Shown here: in pieces, positions 34,400 to 55,063 of the stretch | How the letters are laid out: every line of letters starts with the position of its first letter | Numbering within the stretch: position 1 is the first letter of the stretch | NCBI RefSeq assembly: GCF_014695385.1 | Contig: NZ_JACJOD010000024.1 | Coordinates: 62,001-126,000, forward strand | Source: Trichocoleus sp. FACHB-46 | GTDB taxonomy: Bacteria; Cyanobacteriota; Cyanobacteriia; FACHB-46 | Direction of reading: 5' to 3' | DNA length: 64,000 nt | Position numbers and translations under genes: made by a program | The notes under the pieces: model-generated | The model's input: the letters and a program-made list of their open reading frames with translations, nothing else | The model's database searches: none | Told to the model about the DNA's origin: nothing

Positions 34400-35050
34400 A
34401 TGAATGTGAATGAGCTGCTAAAGCGTTATACAGCGGGTGAGAAGGATTTTGGTGCCATAGAACTACCAAAAGCACCGCTACAGGCAGTCATTCTAAGGGG
34501 AATTAGCCTGAAAGGAGCTGATTTAGTAGGCGCGAACCTGAGTGGCGCTGATCTCAGCGGCGCTGACCTGAGTGGTGCTAACCTAACAGGCGCTAATTTA
34601 ACGGGTGCCATTCTGAGCCGAGCCCGTTTGATAGACGCAATTTTGAGAGTGGCTAATTTGACCCGAGCTGATTTAGTCAAAGCTGATCTCAGTCGAGCTA
34701 ATTTAGTAGGGGCGAAACTAAAAGCAGCAAACTTAGTTCAAGCCAATCTCAGCCGCGCTAGTTTAGGAGAAGCCGACTTACACGGAGCGAATCTGTATCA
34801 GGCTAATCTGCGACGGGCTCACTTATATGAAGCAGATCTGATTGGAGCAACGTTGCAAGGCGTAGATTTGAGCAGTGCTGACCTGCTAGGTGCCAGTTTA
34901 ATCCGGGCTGACCTGACAGATGCTATTTTGACTGCCGCAGATTTAAGCCATACTCAATGGACAGGCATCAATCTAACAGGGGCGAAGTTGCATGGGGCTA
35001 CGTTGCCAGAAGGAATGCTGGCTCTGGTGCAGTCCTACTCGCTGAGCTAG
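34400..35050 (+). CDS. Pentapeptide-repeat protein
   Basis: 216 aa. From about residue 33 to 205 the sequence is an uninterrupted array of A(D/N)Lxx pentapeptides (e.g. ADLVGANLSGADLSGADLSG), which folds as a right-handed quadrilateral beta-helix. The short N-terminal cap (VNELLKRYTAGEKDFGAIEL) is the type seen before many cyanobacterial repeat proteins. No signal peptide is seen, so it is cytoplasmic. The function is unknown; some relatives mimic DNA, most have no known role. A second pentapeptide gene lies at 54212. Confidence 0.9.
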   Translation: MNVNELLKRYTAGEKDFGAIELPKAPLQAVILRGISLKGADLVGANLSGADLSGADLSGANLTGANLTGAILSRARLIDAILRVANLTRADLVKADLSRANLVGAKLKAANLVQANLSRASLGEADLHGANLYQANLRRAHLYEADLIGATLQGVDLSSADLLGASLIRADLTDAILTAADLSHTQWTGINLTGAKLHGATLPEGMLALVQSYSLS

Positions 35051-35628: not shown

Positions 35629-36424
35629 GCTTTATACCTCCCTGCTGCTTTGCTTCGATGCCATCCAGAAAATTCAAGATAATGCTGCTAGATTTTTCCA
35701 CAAGGAATAAATTCCATTCATGAAATCCTTCGTCAACGACAACAAGCTGAGAGTTAGGGATATGACCTAAAAACTCTTGAGCCACGCTTAGAGGGGTTGT
35801 TAAATCCTGACCACCCCAAAGTAAGAGACAAGGCGCTTGGATCTGGGGAAGTAACGGTTTCAGGTCTCCTTCCAAAGCTACCTTCAGGGTTTCAACGACA
35901 TTCTGGAGATGAAAGAAACAGTTGTATGTAAAAGCTTGAAAAATCTGCTGAAGCTGCGGCAACCGAGCTTGAGGCATCTGACCTAACATTTCCACCAAGC
36001 GACGCGGCAACACAGTTGGAATAGTGCCAGAAGGAATCCCTGTGCTATCAATCAACACCAAGCTATCTACGACACCAGGCAGCGTGGCGGAAACTTGGGC
36101 CGAAATGCCACCGCCTAGGGAGTGACCGATCAGATGCACTTTTTCTAAATTAAGAATGTTAATAAAGTCGATTAAAAATTGGGTGTAATCATCGTAATTC
36201 CAGACAGATTTTGGTCCCGTTGTTTTGCCCAGATTGGGTAAGTAGGGAGCGATCACCCGATACCGTTGGGCCAAGAGGCTCAGCATCTCTTGATAGGGTT
36301 CTACCGAAACGCCCCAGCCATGCACAAACAAGATTGGTGGTGTAGCGGTGATCGGTCCCCCAATTAAATAGGAAACATTGCATCCAGCGAAGTGAATTTG
36401 CTTTTCAATTAACTGTGTGTTCAT
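35603..36424 (-). CDS. Alpha/beta-fold hydrolase
   Basis: 273 aa. The oxyanion region is ILFVHGWGVSVEPYQ. The nucleophile elbow GHSLGGG carries the catalytic Ser. The acid lies in LLLWGGQDLTTPLS. The base His is in DEGFHEWNLF. An esterase, lipase or haloalkane-dehalogenase-like activity is possible; the substrate is unknown. It is cytoplasmic. It overlaps DUF421 downstream, and the RecQ-like helicase stop lies 34 bp upstream of its start. Confidence 0.9.
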   Translation of the reverse strand: MNTQLIEKQIHFAGCNVSYLIGGPITATPPILFVHGWGVSVEPYQEMLSLLAQRYRVIAPYLPNLGKTTGPKSVWNYDDYTQFLIDFINILNLEKVHLIGHSLGGGISAQVSATLPGVVDSLVLIDSTGIPSGTIPTVLPRRLVEMLGQMPQARLPQLQQIFQAFTYNCFFHLQNVVETLKVALEGDLKPLLPQIQAPCLLLWGGQDLTTPLSVAQEFLGHIPNSQLVVVDEGFHEWNLFLVEKSSSIILNFLDGIEAKQQGGIKLDEFLIQR

Positions 36425-36458
36425 CCCATCCCCTTTGTGGTTTGTAACTCCTTAAGGA

Positions 36459-38129
36459 TTAGCTCCTAATGGTTGAATCTGCGACAGCTGTATCCATCCG
36501 CTTGAGCAAGCCACGCAGTAGCACCATGCCCACGCCTAACGTCTTGTATCCAACGGTTTCAAATAGCACAGTGATTTTGTCGCCTTCGTAGCGCATGACT
36601 GTGCCTATGCCCCAGCTTTTATGCACCACCTGACTGTTGATGGGGAAAGGCTGATGACCTGTTTCTGGCTCATTCGTGATTCCAGCTTTGCAGTTATCAC
36701 AGAAACCACAAGATTCTGAAAGGCCTTCACCGAAGTAATTGAGGACAAAACGGCGTCGGCAGTCGCGTACTTCGGCATAGCCCCGCATCATTTCAATTCG
36801 CGATCGCACATATTGTTGGCGATGTTCTTGTAGGCGCACTGCTTCCTCGACGGCCTCTTCTAGGTCAGGGAGTGATTCGTTGGGTACCACTTCCCCGTTA
36901 GGCAAAGTCTCTAGGACTCCCACTTCGCCCAAACGGTTGAGGGTATTTTTGAGTTTGGAGCGGGACAAGTTCGTAGTTTCTTGCAGTTCGCGGGGAGCCA
37001 TTGGTTCCTCGCGCTCTTGCAACGCCTGCACCACTTGCTCCACATCCTCAGTCTCAATTTTGCCGCCACTGGCAAAGAAGCGACGCAGGTTAAAGTCTTC
37101 GGGGTTGTAGAACAAAACTGCCTGAGCCGATTCTCCATCGCGTCCTGCTCGACCGATCTCCTGATAGTAGGAATCGATGGAGTCGCTAATGTCGTAATGG
37201 AAAACGAAGCGCACATTTGGTTTATCCACACCCATCCCAAAAGCAGTCGTCGCCACGATCACTTCTGCTTCATCATCCATAAAAGCGCGATAAGCAGCTT
37301 CACGAACTTGAGGAGATTTTCCAGCGTGGTAGACCACGGCTTTCACCTCCTGCTCTTCGAGGGCTTCCGCTAGCTCCTCCGCTCGTTTGCGAGTGGCTAC
37401 ATAGACAATGCCTGGTTTCTCAGCTCGCACCACGCGATCGAGTAGGGCTTCCTGTTTCTCACGAGTGTCTTCGTAACGTTCTACCGCTAACCAAATGTTG
37501 GGGCGATCGAACCCTTGCACCACAACCTTGGCCTTTTGCATGCCTAGGCGATCGACAATTTCCTCCCGCACAGGGGGAGCGGCAGTAGCAGTCAAAGCCA
37601 GAACCAGCGGATGACCTAGAGCCTCAATTATCGTACCCAAGCGGAGATAGTCGGGTCGAAAATCATGGCCCCATTCACTAATGCAATGGGCTTCATCGAC
37701 CACAAACAGCGAAGGTGCGGCTGCTTGGAGTTGCTCTAGCACTTCCTCATTGTTGAATTGCTCAGGGGCTAGAAATAGAAACTCTAGATTCGACTCGGCT
37801 AACTGTGCAAAGGCAGCGGCTCGTTCAGCCTCGGCGATCGTGGAGTTGACCACGCCAACCTCTGCTAACTTCTGGGCTTCAATGGCTGCTTTTTGATCTT
37901 GTTGCAACGCGAGTAACGGTGAAACAACCACGGTAGCGCCTGGAATCAGCAACCCAGCGAGTTGATAAATGGCAGATTTACCCGAACCCGTGGGCATCAC
38001 AGCTAGCGTGTCCTGTCCTTTTAGGAGAGCGGCGATCGCGTCAGCTTGGCCAGGGCGGAGTTGCTCGTAGCCAAGTTGCGCTTGCGCTATTTGCTGAATC
38101 TGCTGTTTGGTTTTACGCTGTTTTGCCAT
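36459..38129 (-). CDS. RecQ-family ATP-dependent DNA helicase (short form)
   Basis: 556 aa. Superfamily 2 helicase: GYEQLRPGQADAIAALLKGQ, Walker A MPTGSGKS (45-52), DEAH in FVVDEAHCISEWGHDFRPDY, RATP region VATTAFGMGVDKPNVRFV, and motif VI QEIGRAGRDG. A Zn-binding segment (CRRRFVLNYFGE ... CGFCDNC) follows, but no HRDC domain. The C-terminus, INSQVVHKSWGIGTVMRYEG then DKITVLFETVGYKTL, looks like the small beta domain of the actinobacterial-type short RecQ proteins. It unwinds DNA 3' to 5' in repair or recombination by family inference. Confidence 0.92.
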   Translation of the reverse strand: MAKQRKTKQQIQQIAQAQLGYEQLRPGQADAIAALLKGQDTLAVMPTGSGKSAIYQLAGLLIPGATVVVSPLLALQQDQKAAIEAQKLAEVGVVNSTIAEAERAAAFAQLAESNLEFLFLAPEQFNNEEVLEQLQAAAPSLFVVDEAHCISEWGHDFRPDYLRLGTIIEALGHPLVLALTATAAPPVREEIVDRLGMQKAKVVVQGFDRPNIWLAVERYEDTREKQEALLDRVVRAEKPGIVYVATRKRAEELAEALEEQEVKAVVYHAGKSPQVREAAYRAFMDDEAEVIVATTAFGMGVDKPNVRFVFHYDISDSIDSYYQEIGRAGRDGESAQAVLFYNPEDFNLRRFFASGGKIETEDVEQVVQALQEREEPMAPRELQETTNLSRSKLKNTLNRLGEVGVLETLPNGEVVPNESLPDLEEAVEEAVRLQEHRQQYVRSRIEMMRGYAEVRDCRRRFVLNYFGEGLSESCGFCDNCKAGITNEPETGHQPFPINSQVVHKSWGIGTVMRYEGDKITVLFETVGYKTLGVGMVLLRGLLKRMDTAVADSTIRS

Positions 38130-38153
38130 CGTCGTTTCTCCGTCCTCACTTAT

Positions 38154-39158
38154 CTAAACTTCGTTGCCCCAACCCAAGAGTGCGGCTGCTCCCAAAGCGG
38201 CTGTGGCTGCGATCGCCCCCCAAGTGACGGTGGGGTGAGTATCGAGCCAAGTGGTCAGACTGGGCTGAGTGGGAAATTCTCCATTCACTTGGTCGTAGCC
38301 AGAGATCGGCTCATACAAGTTGTCAGGAGCATTTTCAGATTTGGGTTTATCAGTGCGCTGAGCCTCAAACCCACTCTGGCGCATGAAGGCATCCACGAGT
38401 TGGGGTGACAACCGCTGGAGTAGAGCGATCGCCTTACCTGCATCTCCCACCACAATGTCGCGCGTCGGATGCTCGGCCACATAAAGAATGACTTTTGCCA
38501 CATCAGCGGGCGCATAGAGCGGAGGCACCCCCATAGGCTTTACCCCTAACTTAGTGCGAGCTTTGTCAAAGACGGGTGTATTGATCGAAGCAGGCTGCAC
38601 TTCAGTAACGCTGACTGGCACTTTGTCGTGCATCAGTTCCACCCGCAGCGACTCCAGGAAGCCGTTGATGCCATGTTTAGAAGAAGCGTAGGCACTTTGC
38701 AGCGGTAGGGCTCGGATCGCTTCCACGGAAGAGACATGAATCAGCGCCCCGCGTCCTTCCCGCTTCAGATGGGGCAGAGCCGCCATCGCGCCAAACACTT
38801 GCCCCATCAAGTTGATATCAATGATTTGCTTAAACTCTTCCGGGGTGGTCTGTTCAAAGGAAGCATAGAGTTCTACTGCGGCGAGATGCACCCAGGTATC
38901 GAGGCGGCCATATTGCTGAATTGCTTTGTCTGCGATCGCCTGGACTTGCCTAAACTCCCGTACATCTGCGGCGATCGCCGTGGCATCTCCGCCTGCTTGC
39001 CGAATTTCCTCAACTAAGGAATCTAATCCTGCTTGGTTCCGGGCGGAAACAATGACTTTGGCTCCTTCGCGAGCAAATTGCAGCGCGGTTTCTCGGCCAA
39101 TGCCACTAGAAGCGCCGACGATCGCAACCACTTGCTGGTTGATCGGCTTAAGTTGCAT
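38154..39158 (-). CDS. SDR with C-terminal membrane anchor, tandem copy 1
   Basis: 334 aa. Classical SDR core: VGASSGIGRETALQFAREGA, an LAAV segment in place of NAG, catalytic Ser in LIHVSSVEAIR and YASSKHG. Unusually it has about 80 extra C-terminal residues, with SVTEVQPASINTPVFDKART followed by a variable linker and a final hydrophobic helix (VTWGAIAATAALGAAALLGW). It appears to be membrane-tethered. A paralogue follows at 39348. The substrate is unknown. Confidence 0.9.
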   Translation of the reverse strand: MQLKPINQQVVAIVGASSGIGRETALQFAREGAKVIVSARNQAGLDSLVEEIRQAGGDATAIAADVREFRQVQAIADKAIQQYGRLDTWVHLAAVELYASFEQTTPEEFKQIIDINLMGQVFGAMAALPHLKREGRGALIHVSSVEAIRALPLQSAYASSKHGINGFLESLRVELMHDKVPVSVTEVQPASINTPVFDKARTKLGVKPMGVPPLYAPADVAKVILYVAEHPTRDIVVGDAGKAIALLQRLSPQLVDAFMRQSGFEAQRTDKPKSENAPDNLYEPISGYDQVNGEFPTQPSLTTWLDTHPTVTWGAIAATAALGAAALLGWGNEV

Positions 39159-39235
39159 GATATAGAACTCCTTGGTTGGGTTTTTTAACTGGGCTAAAGA
39201 TGAAGAGGTAGAAATTTCCGGTTGTTAAATTAGAT

Positions 39236-39344
39236 GACCTCTCTCCCAACCCCTCTCCGCGTCGGAGAGGGGCTATGAAAAGGGTTTATGGCTCTGGCTC
39301 CTGGCTTCCCTTCCCTATCAGGGAAGGGGCTGGGGGTTAGGTTC
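39236..39344. repeat. Palindromic repeat family, copy 2 (two adjacent hairpins)
   Basis: CCCCTCTCCGCGTCGGAGAGGGG (first hairpin, about 39250-39272) and CCCTTCCCTATCAGGGAAGGGG followed by CTGGGGGTTAGG (second). The second is near-identical to 26659-26709. They occupy the gap between the two tandem SDR genes. Confidence 0.8.
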
Positions 39345-39347
39345 TTA

Positions 39348-40385
39348 TTAAGGTTGTTGGGAATTGTTGAACATTCCGTTGGCTAGCAAAGCCAATGCTC
39401 CGACTGCCACTGTTCCCGCCACTGCGCCCCAGGCAAAAGGCGATCGCATGGCGAACCAGTCGGAAACGCTGGGAATAACTAAGTTGCCAAAATCACCATC
39501 CACGCGATCGAGTCCTTGATCGGCGGCGATCGGAGCGAAAACGTTATCTGGAGATGCTTCTGATTCTGGCTCAGTGGTGTGCTGTCCTGGAATTCCCACG
39601 ACTGTTAAAACGGCATCAATTAGAGGAGGAGAGATCCGCTGCGCCACATCCAACACTCGACCGACATCTCCCACAATAAAGTCGCGGGTGGGATGCTCAG
39701 CCACATATAGAATTGCATCTACGACTAAACGCGGATCATAATAAGGCGGAATTCCAGTGGGCTTGACACCCAACTTGGTCTTTACCTTGTTGTAATACGG
39801 CGTATTAATTACAGAGGGCAGAACACTGGTGACGCTAATCGGTATCCCTTCATGTTGCAGTTCTACTCGCAGAGACTCCAACATTCCTTGCAGTGCATGT
39901 TTGGACGCACAATAAGGGCTTTGCAGTGGCAAACTCCGCCGACCCTCCATAGAAGAGATATGAATCAGGGCACCCCGACCTTCTCGCCTTAAGTAAGGTA
40001 ATGCTGCCTTCGCACCGTAAACTTGCCCCATCAGGTTGACATCGATCACCCGCTGAAATTCTTCTGGGGTAATCTGCTCAAAGCGAGCCAGCACACCCGT
40101 AGCAGCGGCATGCACCCAAGTATCTAGGCGACCATAACGTTCTACTGCCTTATCAGCGATCGCCTGCATCTGTTGCATATCGGCGACATCGGCAACCACA
40201 GCGATCGCGTCACCTCCCGCTCGTTGGATCTCCTCCACCAGAGAATCCAGCCCAGGTTGGCTCCGAGCCGCTACGACTACCTTGGCCCCTCGCTGAGCGA
40301 ATTGCAGCGCTGCTTCGCGACCGATGCCACTAGAGGCACCCACGATCGCGACTACCTGCTGACTAATTGGCTTAAGTTGCATCAC
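39348..40385 (-). CDS. SDR with C-terminal membrane anchor, tandem copy 2
   Basis: 345 aa, collinear with the 334-aa paralogue downstream: VGASSGIGREAALQFAQRGA, HISSMEGRRSLP (catalytic Ser), YCASKHALQG (YxxxK) and SVLPSVINTPYYNKVKTKLG. The C-terminal extension again ends in a membrane helix (WGAVAGTVAVGALALLANGM) plus a short polar tail. Tail anchoring is therefore conserved between the copies and probably functional. The two genes are separated by a repeat-filled 189-bp gap. Confidence 0.9.
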   Translation of the reverse strand: MMQLKPISQQVVAIVGASSGIGREAALQFAQRGAKVVVAARSQPGLDSLVEEIQRAGGDAIAVVADVADMQQMQAIADKAVERYGRLDTWVHAAATGVLARFEQITPEEFQRVIDVNLMGQVYGAKAALPYLRREGRGALIHISSMEGRRSLPLQSPYCASKHALQGMLESLRVELQHEGIPISVTSVLPSVINTPYYNKVKTKLGVKPTGIPPYYDPRLVVDAILYVAEHPTRDFIVGDVGRVLDVAQRISPPLIDAVLTVVGIPGQHTTEPESEASPDNVFAPIAADQGLDRVDGDFGNLVIPSVSDWFAMRSPFAWGAVAGTVAVGALALLANGMFNNSQQP

Positions 40386-40464
40386 CTCTGTATCCTTATA
40401 ACTACAAATCTCTCAGGGACAAATCCGTCAGGGAATTACTCTGACACCCAGTTAACTTTGCTTA

Positions 40465-40489
40465 GTTGGACAGGTGAACCCTGCCCAAC
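40465..40489. other. Hairpin between DUF6335 and SDR genes
   Basis: GTTGGACAGG and CCTGCCCAAC pair 9 of 10 with a 5-nt loop. It lies in the gap after the DUF6335 stop and before the SDR copy 2 start, both leftward. It could attenuate read-through, but there is no clear T-run. Confidence 0.35.
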
Positions 40490-40517
40490 ATAACTGCAAA
40501 TCTAATTTGGTGAATCC

Positions 40518-41042
40518 CTACTCTTCTTGATGTCGATTCTGGTAATCCTCAGCAGAGGCAGGATCTAAGTCCCAACGATGCTCATCTCGCTGAGCAAATT
40601 TGTCGTTACCATAGAAGTCCTCGCGATCGCGCATTTCTGTGCCCATCGCTGCACCCAAGTCATCCACAATATCTTGGTCTGGGGTGGCGACGGTGCCGCC
40701 TACCATTTCTTCGCCTTCCATATGCATGGTCCAGGCTGCGTCAACATCCCCACCGCTCAGCTCTGGGCTAGTCTCGTTATAGGCCTGTCTACGGTTGTAC
40801 ATGGTGCGTCCACCAGTGGTCCAACCTGGTTGATCTTTCACCCCCGTGCCATAGGATTCTGTAACTTCCTGAGGCACGTCATCATCCGCAATCTCTTCTG
40901 CTCCTTCCGCTTCGTCACTAAACAATGCGGGATTGGTATCGGTATATTCATTCAGTTCTGGTGCGTCCACATGTTGGCTCGCGTTCAGTCCTGGTTCTGA
41001 ACCTGGTCCTGACTTGGCACCAGATGAGGTTTGGTTAGCCAT
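40518..41042 (-). CDS. DUF6335 family protein
   Basis: 174 aa, very acidic and hydrophilic, without membrane segments. The core matches the family: DDVPQEVTESYGTGVKDQPG, then a repeated Asp/Glu-rich helix, GGDVDAAWTMHMEGEEMVGG, TVATPDQDIVDDLGAAMGTE. The N-terminal 40 residues are disordered (Ser/Gly/Pro/Asn-rich). The function is unknown. In cyanobacteria such proteins often sit among stress genes, which fits the tail-anchored SDRs here. Confidence 0.85.
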   Translation of the reverse strand: MANQTSSGAKSGPGSEPGLNASQHVDAPELNEYTDTNPALFSDEAEGAEEIADDDVPQEVTESYGTGVKDQPGWTTGGRTMYNRRQAYNETSPELSGGDVDAAWTMHMEGEEMVGGTVATPDQDIVDDLGAAMGTEMRDREDFYGNDKFAQRDEHRWDLDPASAEDYQNRHQEE

Positions 41043-41299
41043 TGCCCTGCCTCTCTGTTTTGCAGTTCTATAGTTTGTAGTTCTATAGTTGCCAAGGTAA
41101 CGAAGATAAATCTGAACTCACTCCACAAATAGGCAGAAACGCAGGAGTAAGGATGGGGCGTGTCCTTGGGACTGCAACTGTTTCGCTCGGTTGGCCCTCT
41201 GCAATTAGATAGATAACGGCTTGAGACGTAAGGGAAATTAGAGTGATTATTTGGATAGGGCGATATGTGATCGCTTAGAAAGGCCTAGTTCCAAAGTTC

Positions 41300-42103
41300 A
41301 TGAATCAATACAAGCAACAGGTGATTGATTTCTTTAATCAGAGAATTGCCTATGACCAAGAAGGTTCTCGACACCCTCAAGAAGCAGCCCAGCTCTTAAG
41401 TTTCGTACCCTTGCAAAAGCAGCAAAGAGCGCTTGATATTGCTACAGGTACCGGATTAGTGGCAATTTCGGCAGCACAGAAACTTGGAGTGCAGGGTTAC
41501 GTGGTGGGAGTCGATTTTTCTCCTGGGATGCTGGCTCAGGCTAAGCAGAAGGTTGAACCTCTAGGATTAACAAACATTGAGTTCGTTGAAGCAGATGCAG
41601 AAGCTGTAGACTTTATGCCCGAAAGCTTTGACGTAATTCTCTGTTGCTCTGCAATCACATATTTGCCTGATATTCCTAAAACCTTAGAGAAGTGGTATCG
41701 GTTTCTGAGACCAGGAGGATTTGTGGCTTTCACCTGTCCTGCTGACACTGCTTACTTGGCCCCACTCCAAGGTAAAGTTTACACAGAGCTATTCAATCTT
41801 TCCTTACCTCACATTAACGAACCGCTTAACACGCCTGAGAAGTGTCGTAATTTGTTGCTTCAATCGGGTTTCAGAGAGATTGAGGTTGTAATTGAGCCGT
41901 CTGGATGCTATTTGAGCTTAGATGACGGTAGATTAAGCTGGAGCGAAAGTAGTTTTTACCCAAGAGGTAATCCCTTATCTCTATTATCTGCTCAACAACT
42001 GGAGCAACTTCAGAGGAAATATCGAGCAGAAATTGAGCAGTTGGCAACGGATGCAGGAGTATGGCAAGACATGACGACCTTCTTTGTGAAGGCTCGAAAG
42101 TAA
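41300..42103 (+). CDS. SAM-dependent class I methyltransferase
   Basis: 267 aa. Motif I LDIATGTGLVAISAAQKLG and the acidic loop VVGVDFSPGMLAQAKQK bind S-adenosylmethionine. VEADAEAVDF and SFDVILCCSAITYLPDIPKT follow, then LRPGGFVAFTCPA. The extended C-terminal part contains no recognised substrate domain. The overall pattern is UbiE/Coq5- or biosynthetic-type. The substrate is unknown. A bidirectional terminator follows, separating it from the repeat-protein gene. Confidence 0.9.
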   Translation: MNQYKQQVIDFFNQRIAYDQEGSRHPQEAAQLLSFVPLQKQQRALDIATGTGLVAISAAQKLGVQGYVVGVDFSPGMLAQAKQKVEPLGLTNIEFVEADAEAVDFMPESFDVILCCSAITYLPDIPKTLEKWYRFLRPGGFVAFTCPADTAYLAPLQGKVYTELFNLSLPHINEPLNTPEKCRNLLLQSGFREIEVVIEPSGCYLSLDDGRLSWSESSFYPRGNPLSLLSAQQLEQLQRKYRAEIEQLATDAGVWQDMTTFFVKARK

Positions 42104-42139
42104 GGGCGATCGCGTCTCGTCAGGCTCTTACAAATAGTT

Positions 42140-42175
42140 AAAAACTCCGTCCAGTTTTTCCTAGGCGGAGTTTTT
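42140..42175. terminator. Bidirectional intrinsic terminator
   Basis: AAAAACTCCG (42140-42149) pairs with CGGAGTTTTT (42166-42175), giving a strong stem with A-run and T-run on each side. It lies between the rightward methyltransferase and the leftward repeat-protein gene and can serve both. Confidence 0.88.
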
Positions 42176-42201
42176 GAATTACAAAATCAATTTAAATTGC
42201 T

Positions 42202-42687
42202 TTACCAGCCTTGGTCAGCGGGGTCACCGTAGGGGTCTTCGCTGGCGGGACGAACGTTTCTCCGGTAGCGAGGGTCATCTGCTGGATCGCCGTAGGGGTC
42301 TTCACTGGCAGGGCGGATATTTCTAAATGGGTCCGTGCCATAGCCAGCTTGGTCAGCAGGGTCACCGTAGGGGTCTTCGCTAGCCGGGCGGACATTGCCG
42401 TAGGGGTCTTGATAACCAACGCCGTAACCACCTTGGTTAGCTGGGTCGCCGTAGGGGTCTTCGCTGACGGGCCGAACATTACCATAAGGATCGTAACCGT
42501 AGCCAGCTTGGTTAGCTGGGTCACCGTAAGGATCTTCGCTAGCGGGGCGAACATTACCGTAAGGAGGTTGGTCCGCTGGATCGCCGTAGGGGTCTTCACT
42601 AGCCGGGCGGACCCGGCGGTCATAGTTCACATCTGGGTCATCTCCCAGTAGGGCATCCTGCATTCTCCGGAAAAAATCATCAACCAT
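42202..42687 (-). CDS. Tandem-repeat protein with RPASEDPYGDPADQ units
   Basis: 161 aa. A short N-terminal helix (MVDDFFRRMQDALLGDD) is followed by six copies of a unit with core RP(A/V)SEDPYGDPA(D/N)(Q/D), separated by Gly/Tyr-rich spacers (e.g. YGYDPYGN). The protein is acidic, Tyr/Pro/Gly-rich and probably disordered. The repeat DNA keeps several other frames open by chance. No family was recognised; the regular Asp/Glu-Tyr pattern suggests a multivalent binding or metal-contacting chain. It is leftward, between a terminator and the 170-aa lipoprotein gene. Confidence 0.75.
   Translation of the reverse strand: MVDDFFRRMQDALLGDDPDVNYDRRVRPASEDPYGDPADQPPYGNVRPASEDPYGDPANQAGYGYDPYGNVRPVSEDPYGDPANQGGYGVGYQDPYGNVRPASEDPYGDPADQAGYGTDPFRNIRPASEDPYGDPADDPRYRRNVRPASEDPYGDPADQGW
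42205..42612. repeat. DNA tandem repeat encoding the 14-residue units
   Basis: The element CCGTA(G/A)GG(G/A)TCTTC recurs six times at spacings of about 60-87 bp, with variable spacers. It is a coding repeat, not a CRISPR: spacers are not equal in length and the reading frame is continuous. It is prone to copy-number change. Confidence 0.85.
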
Positions 42688-42819
42688 GATGGATCTCCTA
42701 TTTCAGTTTGGTTATCAAGCTGCTCACGGAGGCTCAATCTATCTCAGCCTGTATCGACAACCGCTGAGCAGCAGTTTTTCAATGTGTCCTGTAACAACTA
42801 ATCGCTACTTAAACCTAAT

Positions 42820-43332
42820 TTAATAAGCGGGAGCGGGCTCACCACTTGCGGCTAAATCGCGAAGGTCGCGCCCTGTTTCTCGACCGTTGTAGCCTTGGAA
42901 CTCTTGATAGCGTCGAGCTTCTGCTTCAGGTACTCGAATGCCTTCTCGTGGTGGTGTCACCCAATGCACCTTACGCTGAGCATCCCGGTAGTAGACTCGA
43001 CCATTTTTGGAGAGGTAATACTGTCCTTCTGGCCCTTGCGCCTGTTTGTTGCGATGCTGATTGTAAAGATAGTAAAGCGCGGCTGCTCCAGCCAAAATGG
43101 CAACTTTCTGCTTGTTGTTCAACCCTTGGTTTACCCGTGTATCATTACGGGGAGGCGCATATTGCCTGTCATTACGAGTGTTGTAAGTAGGCGGTTGCTG
43201 AGGCGAGGTGACTTGAGAATCGCCACAGGCAGCAAATAAGGGGAAGGTTAAAATCAGAGTTAGTACAAGCGCAAACCAACGAGTCGATTTGTGGGTGGTC
43301 GATTTGTCAGTGGTGGATAGGCTCTGGCTCAT
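42820..43332 (-). CDS. Lipoprotein of unknown function
   Basis: 170 aa from the ATG at 43332; a much longer in-frame extension to 43515 shows no signal features. The N-terminal KSTRWFALVLTLILTFPLFA carries the hydrophobic core of the signal, and the lipobox LFAAC gives a lipidated Cys. The mature part has a Thr/Asn/Gln-rich segment, a short hydrophobic stretch (KVAILAGAAALYYLYN) and a C-terminal domain GQYYLSKNGRVYYRDAQRK then VHWVTPPREGIRVPEAEARR. The domain is unknown. The mature hydrophobic segment suggests a second membrane contact. Confidence 0.75.
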   Translation of the reverse strand: MSQSLSTTDKSTTHKSTRWFALVLTLILTFPLFAACGDSQVTSPQQPPTYNTRNDRQYAPPRNDTRVNQGLNNKQKVAILAGAAALYYLYNQHRNKQAQGPEGQYYLSKNGRVYYRDAQRKVHWVTPPREGIRVPEAEARRYQEFQGYNGRETGRDLRDLAASGEPAPAY

Positions 43333-43809
43333 AACAAAAAGATTTGCTAAATGGACAGGATGCTGTTTCTCACTAATTGAACAAGTCAGGAATACCGTTT
43401 TGGGAGATCTCGTAAATAGCAGCCCAGCTGGGGGAGAAGCAAGGCGATCGCTGGAGTTTTGGAATGCACCCCAACACAACTTTGAATGCAAGTGATCAAG
43501 GCGCTCTATAGGCACTCATTAACGCCAAATTTTGGCAAAGTTCCATGCTGCTTGAGGCAGAAGTTAGCCATCAACTTCCCCCCTTGAGGAGTAGGTAATT
43601 TAGAAGAGTTCGACGAAATGCAGTGCAAAAGCTTGAAATTAGATTTTCTAGCTTTGGTAGCTTTGAGATCCGTTGAGTGAGGTCTACTGAGATTTGGTTG
43701 AGATCTGTCTGTAGGGCGAGGAGAGGTTGTCCTTGGCGGACGTACGCTGAGACGTGCTTACACACAGCATAAGCGTCCAATTAATGTGCCAACCCTTAGG
43801 AGGATCACC
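43333..43809. other. 477-bp divergent region between lipoprotein and stress cluster
   Basis: No supported gene. A leftward frame of 69 codons (43571-43780) has no homology or ribosome-binding site. The region must drive both the lipoprotein and the rightward cluster. The cluster's first gene has an unusually clear ribosome-binding site AGGAGG at 43798-43803, 7 bp before its ATG. Confidence 0.4.
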
Positions 43810-44055
43810 ATGTCTCATCACGGCGAACATATGACTGGCACTAGCGACGAGCAGTACGACCTAGTCAGTGTGCTCTACCATGCCTTAGAAGGGGCTGCCA
43901 CTTGCGAAGTCTACATTCAGGACGCGGAGGAAGCAGGCGACAGCGAGTTGACTCAATTTTTCCAGGAACTACAGGAAGAAGAGAACAGACGAGCAGAACG
44001 GGCGAAAGCGCTACTTGCAGCCAGGCTGACTCAATCAACGGCTGCGGCTCGGTAA
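43810..44055 (+). CDS. Ferritin-like helical mini-protein, first gene of the stress cluster
   Basis: 81 aa from the ATG at 43810, selected by the AGGAGG just upstream; an in-frame start at 43786 lies before that site. Two amphipathic helices with Glu-rich motifs: VLYHALEGAATCEVYIQDAE and ELTQFFQELQEEENRRAERA. The pattern (A-x-GA, E-x-Y, ELxxFF, EE) resembles half of a ferritin-like or DUF2383-type bundle, as in the C-terminal part of the following 371-aa protein, so it may dimerise into one. The role is unknown. Confidence 0.7.
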   Translation: MSHHGEHMTGTSDEQYDLVSVLYHALEGAATCEVYIQDAEEAGDSELTQFFQELQEEENRRAERAKALLAARLTQSTAAAR

Positions 44056-44252
44056 GCATCTATACCTTTGCACTTAATGAGCCAGGTTGAGGAGTCACAA
44101 GACAAGTTAATTCTGGATTTAGTTTATTTCTCTGTCTGCTTGTTTCTCTGTCTACGGACAAGAATTCAAGAATTAGTTTCGGCTATAACCGGTAATGCTT
44201 GCGTTTTTCATTGCAGCATTAATGCCCGCAATCAGAGGTACGGAATTCAATC

Positions 44253-45368
44253 ATGGTATCCAATTACGCTCAAAATGGAACTCCCACCTCTTCGAGACGA
44301 GTTGCCATTTTAATTGAAAACGGTGTTGAAGATTCAGAGTTTCATGTTCCTTACACAGCTCTGAAAAAAGCTGGAGCCGAAGTCGTCGTCCTCGGTTCCC
44401 GGATGAATGAGCAGTACAAAGGCAAGCAAGGCAGAGTGTCGCAGGAACCCGATGGCACTACTACAGAAGCCCGTGCCGCTGACTTTGATGCAGTGATTAT
44501 TCCGGGTGGCATGGCTCCCGACAAAATGCGGACCAATATGAAGACGGTGCGCTTCGTCCAAGATGCGATCGCCCAAAACAAGTTGGTCGCAGCGGTTTGT
44601 CACGGTCCTCAGGTTTTGATTGAGGGAGACTTACTTCAAGGTCGCACTGCCACAGGTTTCCGAGCCATTCGCAAAGATATGCAGAATGCAGGAGCTAACT
44701 ATGTGGATGAGCCGCTAGTTGTAGATGGCAATCTGCTCACCTCGCGTCGTCCAGGTGACTTGCCGATGTTTACCACTGCGATCTTGACTCGCCTGGGCCT
44801 AAGCATTCCTGACACGACTCTGCCGGATGTCAGCGATCGCGATGCAGGTTGGTGGAAGTTGGGCGAAGAGTGGGGTGGCTCTAGTAAACAGGAGATCGTT
44901 AGCGCCATTAATACAGCGATCGCCGGAGAACGTTACGGTTTAGAAGCTTTCCAGCAGTATGCCGAGAAGACAGATGACGGTGAATTGCGGTCTGTCTTTC
45001 AGCATGTCTGCACGGCTAAGAAACAACATATCCAGAAGCTAGAAGCAAGGTTGCGGCTGTTCGGGGAGCAAGAATCTCTTCAAGCGGTTGCCAGCGGCAC
45101 TCTAGCTACGCTCAAAGGTTGGTTACAAACACGTACCGATGATATTTCGATCTTGCGGCGAGCCTTGGGCGACTTGCAAACCGGAGTCGTTGATACCTAT
45201 GCCCTGCGTAATAAGCTGACCGACCCCACCACTACTCTAATTTTTGATGACATGGAGATCGACATTGCCAAGCATGAGCAGCAAGTCGCTGATCTTTACC
45301 ATGCTCGCATTAGTGTCGGCCCCGTCAGCCCCCCTCAACCTACCTCTGGTGCCGCAGCCAAGATTTGA
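44253..45368 (+). CDS. PfpI/DJ-1-type glutamine amidotransferase-like protein fused to a ferritin-like domain
   Basis: 371 aa. Residues 15-190 are a DJ-1/PfpI domain: RRVAILIENGVEDSEFHVPY, IIPGGMAPDK, then the nucleophile Cys in VAAVCHGPQVLIEGD (about residue 116) and NLLTSRRPGDLP. Known relatives act as glyoxalase, deglycase or protease-like proteins. After a linker, residues about 210-345 form a helical domain, NTAIAGERYGLEAFQQYAEK then VFQHVCTAKKQHIQKLEARL, with the ExxxY/ExxH pattern of ferritin-like folds. The fusion joins carbonyl or oxidative-damage handling with a possible metal-binding bundle. It is the core of the 43.8-50 kb cluster. Confidence 0.87.
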   Translation: MVSNYAQNGTPTSSRRVAILIENGVEDSEFHVPYTALKKAGAEVVVLGSRMNEQYKGKQGRVSQEPDGTTTEARAADFDAVIIPGGMAPDKMRTNMKTVRFVQDAIAQNKLVAAVCHGPQVLIEGDLLQGRTATGFRAIRKDMQNAGANYVDEPLVVDGNLLTSRRPGDLPMFTTAILTRLGLSIPDTTLPDVSDRDAGWWKLGEEWGGSSKQEIVSAINTAIAGERYGLEAFQQYAEKTDDGELRSVFQHVCTAKKQHIQKLEARLRLFGEQESLQAVASGTLATLKGWLQTRTDDISILRRALGDLQTGVVDTYALRNKLTDPTTTLIFDDMEIDIAKHEQQVADLYHARISVGPVSPPQPTSGAAAKI

Positions 45369-45422
45369 GGTGGCGGGCTATTGCAGATCACTAGCTCTCT
45401 AGGCTGGTCAGGAGATTGAATC

Positions 45423-46106
45423 ATGAAGCGATTTCAAAACCGAACCGAAGCAGGTCAATTTCTAGCATCTTTGCTGACGCAGTATAGCGATCGCGCTGAT
45501 GTGCTGGTTTTAGGCTTGCCTCGCGGTGGGGTGCCGATCGCCTTTGAAATTGCTGCTGCCCTCCATGTGCCGCTAGACATTTTTCTAGTGCGGAAGCTGG
45601 GAGTTCCGGGGCACGAAGAACTGGCGATGGGAGCGATCGCCTCAGGTGATGTGCGGGTGCTGAATCAAGATGTGGTGGAGATGCAACAGATCTCCGATAC
45701 CGCGCTAGAACAGGTGACGCAGCGCGAACAACAAGAGTTGCAACGCCGCGAGCATTTGTATCGAGGCGATCGCCCTATCCTGCCGATCACAGATCGAATT
45801 GTGATTCTGGTAGATGACGGTTTAGCCACAGGAGCCACGATGCGAGCCGCAGTCATGGCAGTGCGGCAACACCAACCCCAAGAAGTTGTGGTGGCGGTTC
45901 CGGTCGGAGCGCGGCAAGCCTACGAGCAGATCAGTCCACAAGTAGAGGCGATCATCTGTGCTGTGCTGCCAGAGCGCTTTAACTCGGTCGGAGCCTGGTA
46001 CGAAGCGTTCCCTCAAACCAGCGATCGCGAGGTCTGTGAGTTGCTGCAACGCGCACAAGAACGGACACAAGATAGTGCTCCGCTCTCGTCTCGGCTAGGT
46101 GTTTAG
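45423..46106 (+). CDS. Phosphoribosyltransferase family protein
   Basis: 227 aa. The type I PRTase signature ILVDDGLATGATMRAAVMAV is the PRPP-binding loop (acidic pair, then the ATGAT turn). Upstream are VLVLGLPRGGVPIAFEIAAA and a basic motif VRKLGVPGHEELAMGAIASG. This layout is the stand-alone PRTase found near stress genes in many bacteria, often with an esterase neighbour. The substrate is unknown and may not be a purine or pyrimidine. It starts 55 bp after the fusion protein. Confidence 0.9.
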   Translation: MKRFQNRTEAGQFLASLLTQYSDRADVLVLGLPRGGVPIAFEIAAALHVPLDIFLVRKLGVPGHEELAMGAIASGDVRVLNQDVVEMQQISDTALEQVTQREQQELQRREHLYRGDRPILPITDRIVILVDDGLATGATMRAAVMAVRQHQPQEVVVAVPVGARQAYEQISPQVEAIICAVLPERFNSVGAWYEAFPQTSDREVCELLQRAQERTQDSAPLSSRLGV

Positions 46107-46144
46107 TTAACAAACTCAAATTTGAAACTCTAAAGGAAAAACAA

Positions 46145-46879
46145 ATGGAACAAAGTAGTAATCAGCCAATTGTGCCTAACCAGTCTGGCAGCAGCGAGGC
46201 CAGTGATACTGAGCGTTGGGCCTCTCTCATCGGGGGAGGTGCCTTGGTGCTTGCAGGTTTACAACAGCGATCGCTCCGGGGCGTTTTGACCGCAGTCGCA
46301 GGTGGAGGATTGCTCTACCAAGGCGTGACTAAGCAAAGCACTGTGCAAAAAGCTCAGGGAGTGCTCCAGCAAGCTCAAGACGCTGTGGGTCTCAACAAAG
46401 GCATCAAAGTTGAAAAAACTGTCACCATCAACAAGCCTGCTGAAGAGCTATATCGCTTCTGGCGCAACTTAGAGAACCTCCCCCGGTTCATGAAGCATCT
46501 CAAATCTGTTACTGCCTACAACGACACGCGATCGCACTGGATTGCCAGTGCTCCTTTGGGCACCAGCGTCGAGTGGGATGCTGACATCATCCAAGAAGAA
46601 GAAAACCGCTTCATTGCTTGGGCTTCTGCCGAGAACGCTGACGTTGATAACTCTGGCTTTGTGCGCTTCCAACCTGCGACTGGTGGTCGGGGCACCGAAG
46701 TCAAAGTTGTGATGGAATATAACATTCCGGGCGGTGCCGTCTCCGCTGCGATCGCCAAACTCCTGGGCGAAGAACCCGAACAACAAATTGGCGATGAATT
46801 GCGCCGCTTCAAGATGCTGATGGAAGCAGGCGAAATTGCGACCACCGAAGGACAAACGTCCTGTCGTGCATCTCATTAG
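46145..46879 (+). CDS. SRPBCC-domain protein with N-terminal membrane segments
   Basis: 244 aa. Residues about 25-62 are Gly/Ala-rich and hydrophobic (ALVLAGLQQRSLRGVLTAVA), probably a membrane hairpin. From about 90 a START-like SRPBCC domain follows (VEKTVTINKPAEELYRFWRN, SVEWDADIIQEEENRFIAWA, GTEVKVVMEYNIPGGAVSAA), the ligand-binding fold of the cyclase/dehydrase group. Such proteins bind lipids or isoprenoids; the ligand is unknown. It begins 39 bp after the PRTase and ends 18 bp before the first alcohol dehydrogenase. Confidence 0.87.
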   Translation: MEQSSNQPIVPNQSGSSEASDTERWASLIGGGALVLAGLQQRSLRGVLTAVAGGGLLYQGVTKQSTVQKAQGVLQQAQDAVGLNKGIKVEKTVTINKPAEELYRFWRNLENLPRFMKHLKSVTAYNDTRSHWIASAPLGTSVEWDADIIQEEENRFIAWASAENADVDNSGFVRFQPATGGRGTEVKVVMEYNIPGGAVSAAIAKLLGEEPEQQIGDELRRFKMLMEAGEIATTEGQTSCRASH

Positions 46880-46896
46880 GCAGGAGTAATCATTCG

Positions 46897-48066
46897 ATGA
46901 GAGCAGTTTGCTGGCATGGGGCGAATGATGTCCGCGTGGACACAGTCCCCGATCCCAAGATTCTCAATCCGCGAGACGCGATTATTAAAGTCACAGCCGC
47001 CGCCATCTGTGGCTCTGATCTGCACATCTATGACGGCTACATTCCCACCATGCAGCCCGGTGACATTATTGGTCACGAGTTTATGGGTGAAGTAGTCGAG
47101 ATTGGCAGCAAAGTAAAGAAATTGCAACGGGGCGATCGCGTCGTGGTTTCTTCGATCATTGGCTGCGGTCAATGCTCCTACTGCAACTTGCAACAGTGGT
47201 CTCTGTGCGACAACTCCAACCCTGGAGGTTGGCTTCAAGAGCAAGTCACAGGTTACTCTACTGCTGGAATTTTTGGCTACTCTCATGCCTTCGGTGGCTA
47301 TGCGGGTGCCCATGCCGAATATATTCGCGTTCCTTTCGCCGATCACGGAGCAATCAAAGTTCCTCAAGGCATTCCAGATGAGAAACTACTCTTTCTCTCC
47401 GATGCCTTCCCCACCGGATATATGGGCGCAGAAATGTGCGACATCCAACCGGGAGATACCGTCGCGGTTTGGGGGGCAGGTGCTGTAGGTCTCTTCGCCA
47501 TGCATAGTGCCTACATGCTCGGTGCCGAACGAGTCATCGCGATCGATCGCTTCCCCGAACGACTCCGGATGGCAAGAGAGTTGGTCAAAGCCGAAGTAAT
47601 CAACTACGAAGAAGTAGACGCAGGCGAAGCCCTCAAGGAAATGACCGGAGGACGCGGCCCCGATAGCTGCATCGACGCGGTGGGTCTAGAAGCCCACGGC
47701 ATGGGTGTAGAAGGCTTCTACGACAAAGCCAAACAAGCTGTACGACTAGAAACCGATCGCCCCAACGTGCTGCGACAAATGATGGTTGCCTGTCGCAAAG
47801 GCGGCACCCTCTCCATCATGGGAGTCTACTCTGGCTTCGTAGACAAAATGCCCTTTGGCGCTGCCTTCAACAAGAGTCTCACCTTCAAAATGGGGCAAAT
47901 GCACGGCCAGCGCTACATCCCCATGTTGCTAGAACATGTCCTCAACGGCGGCATCGACCCCTCCGCTGTCCTCACCCACACCCTACCGCTAGAAGAAGCC
48001 AAACGTGGCTTCGAAATGTTCAAAAACAAACAAGACAACTGCATGCGGGTCATGTTCAAGCCATGA
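46897..48066 (+). CDS. Zinc-dependent alcohol dehydrogenase, tandem copy 1
   Basis: 389 aa, medium-chain MDR superfamily. Catalytic-zinc ligands are in [12 protein letters not shown] (Cys and Asp/His) and [10 protein letters not shown] (His-Glu). Structural-zinc Cys cluster CGQCSYCNLQQWSLC. NAD(P) Rossmann motif GAGAVGLFAM. The long insert and the [13 protein letters not shown] region resemble glutathione-independent formaldehyde dehydrogenases. Both zinc sites look intact. It may detoxify aldehydes in the same cluster as the DJ-1-like protein. A paralogue follows. Confidence 0.92.
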   Translation: MRAVCWHGANDVRVDTVPDPKILNPRDAIIKVTAAAICGSDLHIYDGYIPTMQPGDIIGHEFMGEVVEIGSKVKKLQRGDRVVVSSIIGCGQCSYCNLQQWSLCDNSNPGGWLQEQVTGYSTAGIFGYSHAFGGYAGAHAEYIRVPFADHGAIKVPQGIPDEKLLFLSDAFPTGYMGAEMCDIQPGDTVAVWGAGAVGLFAMHSAYMLGAERVIAIDRFPERLRMARELVKAEVINYEEVDAGEALKEMTGGRGPDSCIDAVGLEAHGMGVEGFYDKAKQAVRLETDRPNVLRQMMVACRKGGTLSIMGVYSGFVDKMPFGAAFNKSLTFKMGQMHGQRYIPMLLEHVLNGGIDPSAVLTHTLPLEEAKRGFEMFKNKQDNCMRVMFKP

Positions 48067-48120
48067 CCTAACCCCCCGCCCCCTTCCCTAGTAGGGAAGG
48101 AGGAGTCAGAGAGTGAGGGG
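48065..48120. repeat. Palindromic repeat family, copy 3
   Basis: GACCTAACCCCCCGCCCCCT then TCCCTAGTAGGGAAGG. It is the reverse orientation of 26659-26709 in content, with the same CCTAACCCCC arm and TCCCT/AGGGA stem. It directly follows the stop of alcohol dehydrogenase copy 1. Confidence 0.75.
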
Positions 48121-48189
48121 AGAGAAGTGAGAAGCCAATGGCCAACTACTCACCCAACCCAAGGCTCGAAACACTTACACCCAAACTTG

Positions 48190-48264
48190 TTTGGAGGGGG
48201 CCTGGGGGACGCAACCGTCCCTCAGCGGGGGTTTGGAGGCGAGTGCCCCCAAGGTTCGGTTCTT
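48190..48264. repeat. GC-rich dispersed repeat, copy C
   Basis: TTTGGAGGGGGCCTGGGGGA, then the shared CGTCCCTCAGCGGGGGTTTG and TGCCCCCAAGG. About 75 bp; same orientation as copy B. It lies in the 248-bp gap between the two tandem alcohol dehydrogenase genes. Confidence 0.85.
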
Positions 48265-48314
48265 CAATGCTTATATCAAAACCTAACTTGAAAGTAGTAC
48301 AGGAGCAAAACTAG

Positions 48315-49484
48315 ATGAAAGCACTTTGCTGGCATGGAGCCAACGACGTTCGGATCGGCAACGTCCCCGATCCCACCATCCTCAATCCCCGCGACGCCAT
48401 CATCAAAATCACCTCTACCGCCATCTGCGGCTCCGATCTACATATCCTTGACGGCTATATCCCCACCATGAAAGAGGGAGATATCCTCGGGCATGAATTC
48501 ATGGGAGAAGTGGTTGAACTTGGTAGTGCCGTCAAGAACGTGAAAATCGGCGATCGCGTTGTCGTTCCCTTCACCATCTCCTGCGGCGGCTGCTTCTTCT
48601 GTCAGCGGGATTTGTGGTCTTTGTGCGACAACTCCAACCCCAACGGCTGGATGGCAGAAGCAGCAATGGGGCACTCTCCCTCTGGATTATTTGGTTACTC
48701 CCACATGTTCGGCGGCTATGCGGGCGGTCAAGCCGAATATGCCCGTGTTCCCTTTGCCGATGTGGGTCTGTTCAAAGTGCCTGACGGGCTCAGTGACGAT
48801 CAAGTCTTGTTCCTGACGGACATTTTCCCTACAGGTTACATGGCGGCAGAAAACTGCAACATTGAGCCAGGAGATACCGTAGCAGTTTGGGGCTGTGGTC
48901 CTGTCGGCCAGTTTGCCATCAAGAGTGCTTTCATGCTGGGTGCCGAACGGGTGATCGCGATCGATCGCATTCCCGAACGCTTACAGATGGCGAAAGAGCA
49001 ATGTGGGGCCGAAATCATCAATTACGAAGAGATTGATGCGGGAGACGCTGTCAAAGAGATGACAGGCGGGCGCGGTCCCGATAGCTGTATTGATGCCGTA
49101 GGTATGGAAGCACATGGCACAGGCCCAATGGCGATGTACGACCAGGTCAAGCAAGCAGTACGCCTAGAAACCGATCGCCCCACTGCGCTGCGTCAAGTGA
49201 TTCTCTCTTGCCGGAAAGGTGGCCATGTCTCCTTGGCAGGTGTGTATGGTGGTTTCCTAGATAAAGTGCCTTTTGGGGCTGCTTTCAACAAAGGCTTGAC
49301 CTTCAAAATGGGCCAAACTCACATGCACCGCTACATTAAACCCCTGATGGAAGCGGTACAACAAGGCAAGATTGACCCCTCCTTTGTCATTACCCATAAA
49401 CTGCCTCTAGACCAAGCTCCTCATGGTTACGAGATCTTTAGAGATAAAAAAGAGAACTGCATCAAAGTTGTCCTCAAGCCGTAG
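48315..49484 (+). CDS. Zinc-dependent alcohol dehydrogenase, tandem copy 2
   Basis: 389 aa, exactly the same length as copy 1 and alignable without gaps. Catalytic zinc [13 protein letters not shown] and [12 protein letters not shown], structural zinc [15 protein letters not shown], cofactor motif [10 protein letters not shown]. The cofactor turn differs from copy 1 (CGP against AGA) and the N-terminal half is more divergent, so substrate range may differ. It belongs to the same rightward cluster, following the repeat-filled gap. Confidence 0.92.
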
Positions 49485-49493
49485 GCCGTAGTC

Positions 49494-49676
49494 ATGGAGA
49501 TTGACCCTGCTCCTCAATTTGAAAAGACAGCTTTAATCAACCAGTTGCTCTCAGAGCTGTATAACTTGGTTGAAATTCTAGAAGCTGAGCATATCAAGCC
49601 TGACTCCCTGCAACTCCACTCGCCTAGTCAGGCTGATGGGCTGGAGCCTGCCCCATTGCGATCGCCAATTGTTTAA
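49494..49676 (+). CDS. Very small protein, unknown, in the stress cluster
   Basis: 60 aa, starting only 9 bp after the alcohol dehydrogenase stop: MEIDPAPQFEKTALINQLLS followed by an acidic amphipathic helix (ELYNLVEILEAEHIKPDSLQ) and a polar tail. The tight spacing to both neighbours supports a real gene, although a short chance frame cannot be excluded. No family was recognised. Confidence 0.5.
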   Translation: MEIDPAPQFEKTALINQLLSELYNLVEILEAEHIKPDSLQLHSPSQADGLEPAPLRSPIV

Positions 49677-54211: not shown

Positions 54212-55063
54212 ATGGCAAATCCAGAACATTTGGCGCTATTGAAAATGGGTGCTGTGCGATGGCTGGAGTGGAGAACTCACAATGGTGCTGTAGAACCAGA
54301 TTTGAGCGAAGCAGACCTGAGCGGCATTAATCTCCGAGGCGCAGATTTGCAAGGAGTCAATCTCAAGCGGGTAGACCTCAGCCATACGAAGTTGATTGCT
54401 GCCAATCTCAGCAACGCCATTCTCAACAACGCTAATCTTCAAGCGGCTGACTTGGTAGAAGTTTATTTGTGCAACGCCGAGTTGGTTGACGCTAGCCTGA
54501 TGCAGGCAGATTTGCGCGATGCCAACCTCAGCGGAGCCAACTTGATCGGCACGGATTTGCGGGGCACCAATTTTAAGCGGGCTGACCTGAGTGGAGCTAA
54601 CTTGATTGGCACCGATTTACGCGAAGCCAATCTCCGAGGCGCAGACCTCAGTGAAGCTCGTTTGAGCCGCGCCAACTTGAGCGAAGCCAACCTGATGGCG
54701 GTTAATCTAAGTCAAGCAGACCTTAGCAATGCCACTCTCTATAACGCGGAGCTGCTTACTGCTCATCTTTACCAAGCTAACCTCACCAAGGCCAACTTAA
54801 TCCAGGCGCATCTGGGGCGGGCGTATGCTTCTAGAGCTAACTTGAGCGAAGCGGATTTATCTAAAGCCGATTGCAGTTGGGCCAATCTTAGCAAGGCCAA
54901 TTTGCAAGGGGCTAATCTCAGTTACGCCTATCTGCGGGGCGTTAACTTGAGTGGGGCTAATCTGCAAGGAGCCAATTTGCAAGGAGCTGAGCTGGGCTGG
55001 GCCAACCTGCACAAAGCCAATTTGCAAGGAGCCACCCTCCCTGATGGTTCTATCCATCGTTAA
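54212..55063 (+). CDS. Pentapeptide-repeat protein linked to ccmP
   Basis: 283 aa. The short N-terminal cap (ALLKMGAVRWLEWRTHNGAV) is followed by A(D/N)Lxx repeats from about residue 31 to 275 (e.g. ANLSGANLIGTDLRGTNFKR), a long right-handed beta-helix of roughly twelve coils. Cytoplasmic, no signal peptide. It starts 12 bp after the ccmP stop, so translation coupling is likely. A structural or protein-binding role beside the carboxysome shell is a guess from position; pentapeptide proteins are too widespread to assign by sequence alone. Confidence 0.88.
   Translation: MANPEHLALLKMGAVRWLEWRTHNGAVEPDLSEADLSGINLRGADLQGVNLKRVDLSHTKLIAANLSNAILNNANLQAADLVEVYLCNAELVDASLMQADLRDANLSGANLIGTDLRGTNFKRADLSGANLIGTDLREANLRGADLSEARLSRANLSEANLMAVNLSQADLSNATLYNAELLTAHLYQANLTKANLIQAHLGRAYASRANLSEADLSKADCSWANLSKANLQGANLSYAYLRGVNLSGANLQGANLQGAELGWANLHKANLQGATLPDGSIHR

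Follow-up and report, generated by a model that had tools for sequence, protein, structure and literature searches.

Short-motif recognition pairs are well known in eukaryotes and are seemingly rarer in bacteria. Encapsulation peptides, LPXTG, and PEP-CTERM act as C-terminal recruitment or sorting tags, and CsoS2 of alpha-carboxysomes carries repeated short motifs. CsoS2 is described as a disordered protein that organizes partner proteins (PMC10484944). The cyanobacterial repeat protein analyzed here is likewise predicted to be disordered and has repeated short motifs; no sequence relation to CsoS2 is claimed, and its linked partner is a lipoprotein-like membrane protein rather than a shell protein or Rubisco. 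Similar to the C-terminal sorting tags, its repeat unit is a short peptide that can end unrelated proteins and is tied to one partner gene, but it is usually multiplied 4 to 10 times in one protein. The recurrent neighbors at 83 loci included nothing that resembled a sortase or shell gene. The letters of the motif were absent from 5.39 million open papers, and among the open-literature titles covered, none named the unit-partner gene pair.

The window is a stretch of 64,000 nucleotides from Trichocoleus sp. FACHB-46. The acidic, six-unit ORF of 161 residues that the first-pass annotation had described in it was borne out on the minus strand, with an ATG at 42687 and a stop codon at 42202-42204 (Table 1). 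Its units, which start at residues 28, 48, 73, 101, 126, and 147, read PASEDPYGDPA five times and PVSEDPYGDPA once, and the 12-residue consensus is P-A-S-[E/Q]-D-P-Y-G-D-P-A-D. The protein has a pI of ~4.05, 33 Asp plus Glu residues, 11.8% Gly, and no Cys, His, or Lys, and by computation it falls on the disordered side of the charge-hydropathy boundary. It lacks a signal peptide. The hydrophobic moment of its N terminus was reached by 3.5% of shuffles; for the first 14 residues of 81 homologues the mean moment was 0.62, a value reached by a median of 2.5% of shuffles. No Pfam or NCBIfam family matched the repeat protein above the cut-off, and no solved structure matched it. The hairpin downstream of the gene was found by RNA folding and was not listed by a consensus scan; a consensus promoter scan gave 0 matches versus 1.4 in shuffles.

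Table 1. Features of the repeat (tag) gene and its partner gene in the window
Feature	Coordinates	Strand	Basis
Repeat (tag) protein gene, 161 aa	42202..42687	-	ORF, relatives, purifying selection
N-terminal amphipathic segment MVDDFFRRMQDALLG, residues 1-15	42643..42687	-	kept in homologues
Unit 1, PASEDPYGDPAD	42571..42606	-	pattern count
Unit 2, PASEDPYGDPAN	42511..42546	-	pattern count
Unit 3, PVSEDPYGDPAN	42436..42471	-	pattern count
Unit 4, PASEDPYGDPAD	42352..42387	-	pattern count
Unit 5, PASEDPYGDPAD	42277..42312	-	pattern count
Unit 6, PASEDPYGDPAD	42214..42249	-	pattern count
Shine-Dalgarno-like AGGAG, 7 nt before the repeat-gene ATG	42695..42699	-	direct sequence reading
Strong two-way terminator hairpin separating the repeat gene from the convergent methyltransferase gene	42138..42177	.	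RNA fold, -19.1 / -18.1 kcal/mol
Partner gene (170 aa), encoding a signal peptide and lipobox (Cys36), a linker rich in Pro, a second hydrophobic helix, and an aromatic domain at the C terminus	42820..43332	-	linkage, alignment
Partner signal-peptide helix and lipobox, residues 17-36, invariant Cys36	43225..43284	-	alignment; AF2 helix 17-32
Partner second helix, residues 73-96, short possible membrane span	43045..43116	-	AF2 helix 73-96
Partner C-terminal domain GQYYLSKNGRVYYRD...HWVTPP...GRDL, 55 residues, proposed tag-binding part	42862..43026	-	alignment, predicted strands

A pattern scan across the bacterial and archaeal genomes of one collection picked out 264 stretches, and 196 of these code for relatives; thus, the tract is not without homologues, an outcome that the first-pass annotation had linked to a non-expressed repeat. 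The best 80 of the 196 relatives were kept. These best 80 are all cyanobacterial by name and include Nostoc, Scytonema, Microcoleus, Calothrix, Brasilonema, Leptolyngbya, and a Chroococcidiopsidaceae MAG. The 83 loci yielded 81 clean gene models (L002 and L032 were dropped by their start pattern; within the 83, L003 repeats L069, and L067 and L068 encode identical proteins). A comparison of copy number, also proposed in that annotation, showed 4 to 10 DPYGDP-type units per protein across the 81 homologues: 4 in 35 genes, 5 in 31, 6 in 13, and 7 and 10 in one gene each. No match was detected among 72,556 plasmid records that would point to plasmid-borne spread.

In equal-length homologue pairs (groups of 15, 209, 28, and 3 pairs), the median pS was 0.30 to 0.59 versus a pN of 0.04 to 0.13, and dN/dS was ~0.12 to 0.16 in the four groups with at least 3 pairs. 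By region, pN was 0.061 in the repeat part, 0.064 in the N terminus, and 0.141 in the linker, showing that the repeat part is constrained equally to the N terminus. A codon-position count is circular in that it selects units by their protein pattern, and we therefore base the claim of selection solely on the pS/pN pairs. Variation of the copy number between 4 and 10 is what a non-functional or non-expressed repeat tract could also display, but the 196 relatives, the low dN/dS, and the presence of a Shine-Dalgarno sequence and a terminator make such a tract hardly credible. We conclude that the repeat ORF is a real gene and belongs to a real family.

As the first-pass annotation had noted, two other frames are open across the repeats (minus strand, 42192-42623; plus strand, 42211-42651). 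In the repeat part of the 81 homologues, the +1 frame was open in 58 and the +2 frame in only one, while the three reverse frames were open in 67, 0, and 8. These frames look like a by-product of a repeat whose unit is free of stop codons and whose period is a multiple of three. Overlapping genes in the alternative frames were set aside, since the frames are inconsistently open across homologues.

The regular spacing of acidic residues and tyrosine had suggested binding of calcium, iron, or another metal by the unit. Asp5 of the unit is invariant and Asp9 is present in 383 of 384 units, counts that are biased by the selection of units by pattern. The composition does not support the suggestion: the 10,382 residues of the 81 homologues contain no Cys and only 5 His, and Glu is exchanged for Gln in 90 of the 384 units. 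Furthermore, no metal-site family of Pfam or NCBIfam matched, and metal binding would leave the linkage to a partner gene unexplained. We consider this reading very unlikely; the unit aspartates may bind calcium weakly.

The most informative feature of the locus, absent from the first-pass annotation, is the partner gene, which lies just upstream of the repeat gene. ORF clustering showed that the partner family is the same-strand upstream neighbor in 81 of the 83 loci, with a gap of 15 to 221 nt. In both exceptional cases, whole partner genes are present elsewhere in the assembly. At L044, the repeat gene adjoins a remnant of only the last ~29 partner codons, and a whole copy is found on a different contig. 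At L047, a contig end leaves 275 bases upstream of the repeat gene, and these contain no partner; its assembly has two partners elsewhere, one of them near a contig end.

The partner is lipoprotein-like as judged by a hydrophobic segment followed by a lipobox Cys, which is invariant in 31 of 31 aligned sequences and is predicted to be lipidated. The best 15-residue stretch of its second helix has a mean hydropathy of 1.40 (81 homologues). The C-terminal domain is rich in conserved Tyr and Trp (alignment of 31 members), and its mean column identity is 81% (alignment of 42 sequences). AlphaFold predicted three strands and a short helix in this domain, with a mean pLDDT of 63.9 for the whole protein and of 67.6, which is low confidence, for the domain alone. 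The partner had no Pfam or NCBIfam match above the cut-off and no enzyme family match, and the search of solved structures returned chance rows only.

To what extent the unit and the partner occur together was seen in 388 genomes of the class: the partner profile matched 23, the unit profile 24, and both profiles 22. By coordinates, the two were on the same contig and adjacent in all 22 genomes with both. Fisher's test on these counts (22/1/2/363) gave 1.4e-32, which, as the genomes are related, is a measure of tightness only. In G204, the 23rd genome with the partner, the N-terminal helix is encoded by the next gene, whose repeat stretch reads N. In one genome (G094), units occur at two loci, each truncated by the start of its contig, and the partner was not detected at E values up to 1. 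Its two loci (L097 and L098, on C134 and C34) are on contigs that begin inside the same tag gene, suggesting a duplicated region that broke the assembly. Another genome (G211) gave a weak unit match (E = 0.002) in a 25-residue frame. In the 388 genomes, the partner domain was not detected in other proteins at E = 0.01 or better (G188 gave 0.09), and the unit was not found elsewhere above chance level. The partner of G262 reads with one internal stop, and on C60 of G389 (L191/L198) one partner copy lacks an adjoining tag gene, while a repeat gene is located elsewhere in this genome. Two congeners (G001 and G002) lack both genes; therefore, the module is dispensable.

The repeat-protein profile matched 25 of the 388 genomes, including G086 and G128, both of which lack the partner. 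Their repeat genes (L090, 876-1157, and L091, 1141-1410) are located beside a malate dehydrogenase gene and have kept the N-terminal helix, but contain no units; acidic and arginine-rich low-complexity sequence forms the tails instead. The partner search in G128 gave one row (E = 0.185), which lies elsewhere in the genome and on the signal-peptide part. Both genomes belong to one genus, and the loss of the units was therefore possibly one event.

The unit also occurs on a different protein. This protein (type b, MNFLQNILGGG...), which carries a hydrophobic helix of its own, is encoded beside the partner and has one to three C-terminal units in three genomes. In G126, the type-b gene ends in two units and overlaps the start of the partner by a few bases; in G262, it carries one terminal unit; and in G388 (Komarekiella), three C-terminal units are encoded by an intact type-b gene located after a second copy of the partner. 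Furthermore, a broken type-b gene after the second partner copy of G333 still ends in a unit. In contrast, a type-b relative in G210, a genome with neither the partner nor the unit, has the C terminus GSGHGSGH, and a broken type-b paralogue of G262, located on another contig and away from the partner, also lacks the unit. A type-b search in a wider set of 276, which had controls, gave, beyond G126, G262, and G210, only weak rows (E values of 5e-4 to 0.009), and a search in 77 relatives, a set without a positive control, gave no match. We conclude that the unit is portable: a second protein type carries it beside the partner, and relatives away from the partner lack it.

On these grounds, namely, conservation, gene linkage, tag portability, and tag absence where the partner is absent, we propose with a probability of roughly 0.6 that the unit serves as a short tag recognized by the C-terminal domain of the partner, and that the window protein is a multivalent, membrane-side version of it. 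From the same data we infer direct binding, the residues involved, the membrane topology, and a cluster. In this two-gene module, the upstream gene would provide the partner, a lipoprotein-like protein anchored in the membrane and bearing a small aromatic domain at its C terminus, and the downstream gene a disordered acidic protein with many tag copies behind an amphipathic N-terminal helix. The tag would most likely be a linear motif recognized by the C-terminal domain. Because it carries six copies, the window protein may link several partner molecules together in a cluster or scaffold on the membrane side, and type-b proteins may be recruited likewise as single- or few-tag clients. If the second helix of the partner spans the membrane, the C-terminal domain would lie in the cytoplasm, the expected location of the repeat protein, which lacks a signal peptide. 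A cytoplasmic C terminus is a guess, uncertain because this helix is short and moderately hydrophobic; a domain facing outward would miss such a repeat protein. The interpretation in the first-pass annotation is partly upheld: its comparison to a multivalent scaffold chain fits the disorder, the 4 to 10 units, the amphipathic N terminus, and the linked membrane partner.

Disorder, a high Gly content, and an amphipathic N terminus are also properties expected of a stress-protective hydrophilic protein, such as a hydrophilin or an LEA-like protein, which would shield membranes or proteins from drying and whose partner would merely be cotranscribed. Many carriers bear names of terrestrial or mat-forming genera, and DJ-1/PfpI, ferritin-like, and DUF6335 genes are near the repeat gene in the window. 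However, a generic protectant needs no exact 12-residue unit, and this role predicts neither the tie to one partner nor a single C-terminal copy on another protein. No LEA family of Pfam or NCBIfam matched, and we regard such a protectant as unlikely.

Identical repeated cores after a helical, leader-like N terminus, and the C-terminal position of the unit on the type-b protein, could also mean that the unit is a substrate. It would then be a repeated site of processing, modification, or covalent attachment, as in a sorting signal or a multicore precursor, with the partner as anchor or acceptor. Recurrent neighbors at the 83 loci argue against this, since no conserved modifying or cleaving enzyme is among them: apart from the partner, they resemble housekeeping genes (mdh and fpg, for example, as named by eye), and 3 of the 83 loci have the methyltransferase that adjoins the repeat gene of the window. 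The partner itself has no enzyme family match above the cut-off, and a substrate role appears to us quite improbable. A RiPP precursor with repeated cores was rejected as well, as no linked modifying enzyme was found among the recurrent neighbors of the 83 loci, which were named by eye.

Returning to recognition of the tag by the partner, the C-terminal domain of the latter shares with the WW domain (PF00397) a G-R-V-Y-Y sequence and, further on, a Trp with x-x-P after it, and three strands are predicted in it. Both Foldseek searches listed WW chains first (2ysi and 7lp4; 2n4w), with top E values of 0.43 and 2.6. When the partner profile was compared to five WW sequences, the probability was 38% and the score 19.9 over 17 columns, versus a maximum of 16.9 in 60 column shuffles. 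Differences were also found. WW domains have two Trp residues ~20 residues apart, whereas the first of these positions is Tyr in the partner; the second aromatic residue of the pattern, Trp124, is conserved in 90% or more. Unlike WW ligands, the unit PAS[EQ]DPYGDPAD has no PPxY. The Pfam WW model did not match the partner, even in a search of its own genome at E values up to 10. The three-stranded sheet is predicted at low confidence, and the WW Foldseek matches are weak. Structural alignment of the whole partner model gave no WW or DUF903 chain at a Z score of 2 or more; its four rows were on other parts or on large unrelated chains. We did not file the partner as a WW protein because the Pfam model misses it, the first Trp is missing, and the unit lacks PPxY.

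Another likeness is to YgdI/YgdR (DUF903, SH3-like), small lipoproteins with a beta-hairpin fold, from which the partner differs by its second hydrophobic helix and Pro-rich linker. DUF903 chains appeared in both Foldseek searches (2ra2, 3bdu, and 3fif; 5cai and 2ra2), with E values of 1 and worse, which are not significant, and the Pfam DUF903 model did not match the partner. WW- or SH3-like recognition by the partner domain is thus a weak lead.

A more specific version of tag recognition would be a linear-motif/adaptor system of the eukaryotic style. In it, an undescribed aromatic-groove domain, WW- or SH3-like in function and carried by a membrane lipoprotein, would read the repeated DPYGDPA, and multivalent and single-tag proteins would build a membrane-side cluster, possibly on thylakoids. 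We hold this version as speculative and rather doubtful. CAAD is a thylakoid-membrane domain, and the paralogous partner loci L195, L196, and L198 (in G333, G388, and G389) adjoin a CAAD-domain gene, identified by a Pfam match in G388 and G389 and by a BLAST match in G333. This neighbor hints at thylakoids for the paralogous loci and does not apply to the window locus.

Should the tag bind the partner, the two would be a native, testable short-motif recognition pair in many cyanobacteria, with natural variants that comprise 1 to 10 copies, two carrier proteins, and natural loss of both tag and partner. Such recognition would assign a function to two families of genes that no Pfam or NCBIfam model matches above the cut-off, and would provide a small peptide tag to recruit proteins to a cyanobacterial membrane.

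The region from 36000 to 49500 of the window is a gene neighborhood of the stress type. It includes a DUF6335 gene (40518-41042), two SDR-like genes, a small ferritin-like ORF (43810-44055), and two tandem alcohol-dehydrogenase-like ORFs; the last two were judged by eye. On its plus strand, a DJ-1/PfpI domain is fused to a C-terminal DUF2383/EncB-like ferritin-type domain (44253-45368). Elsewhere in the window, 15-base tandem repeats at 34528-34596 and 54959-55034 were judged by eye to be of the pentapeptide-repeat-protein type.
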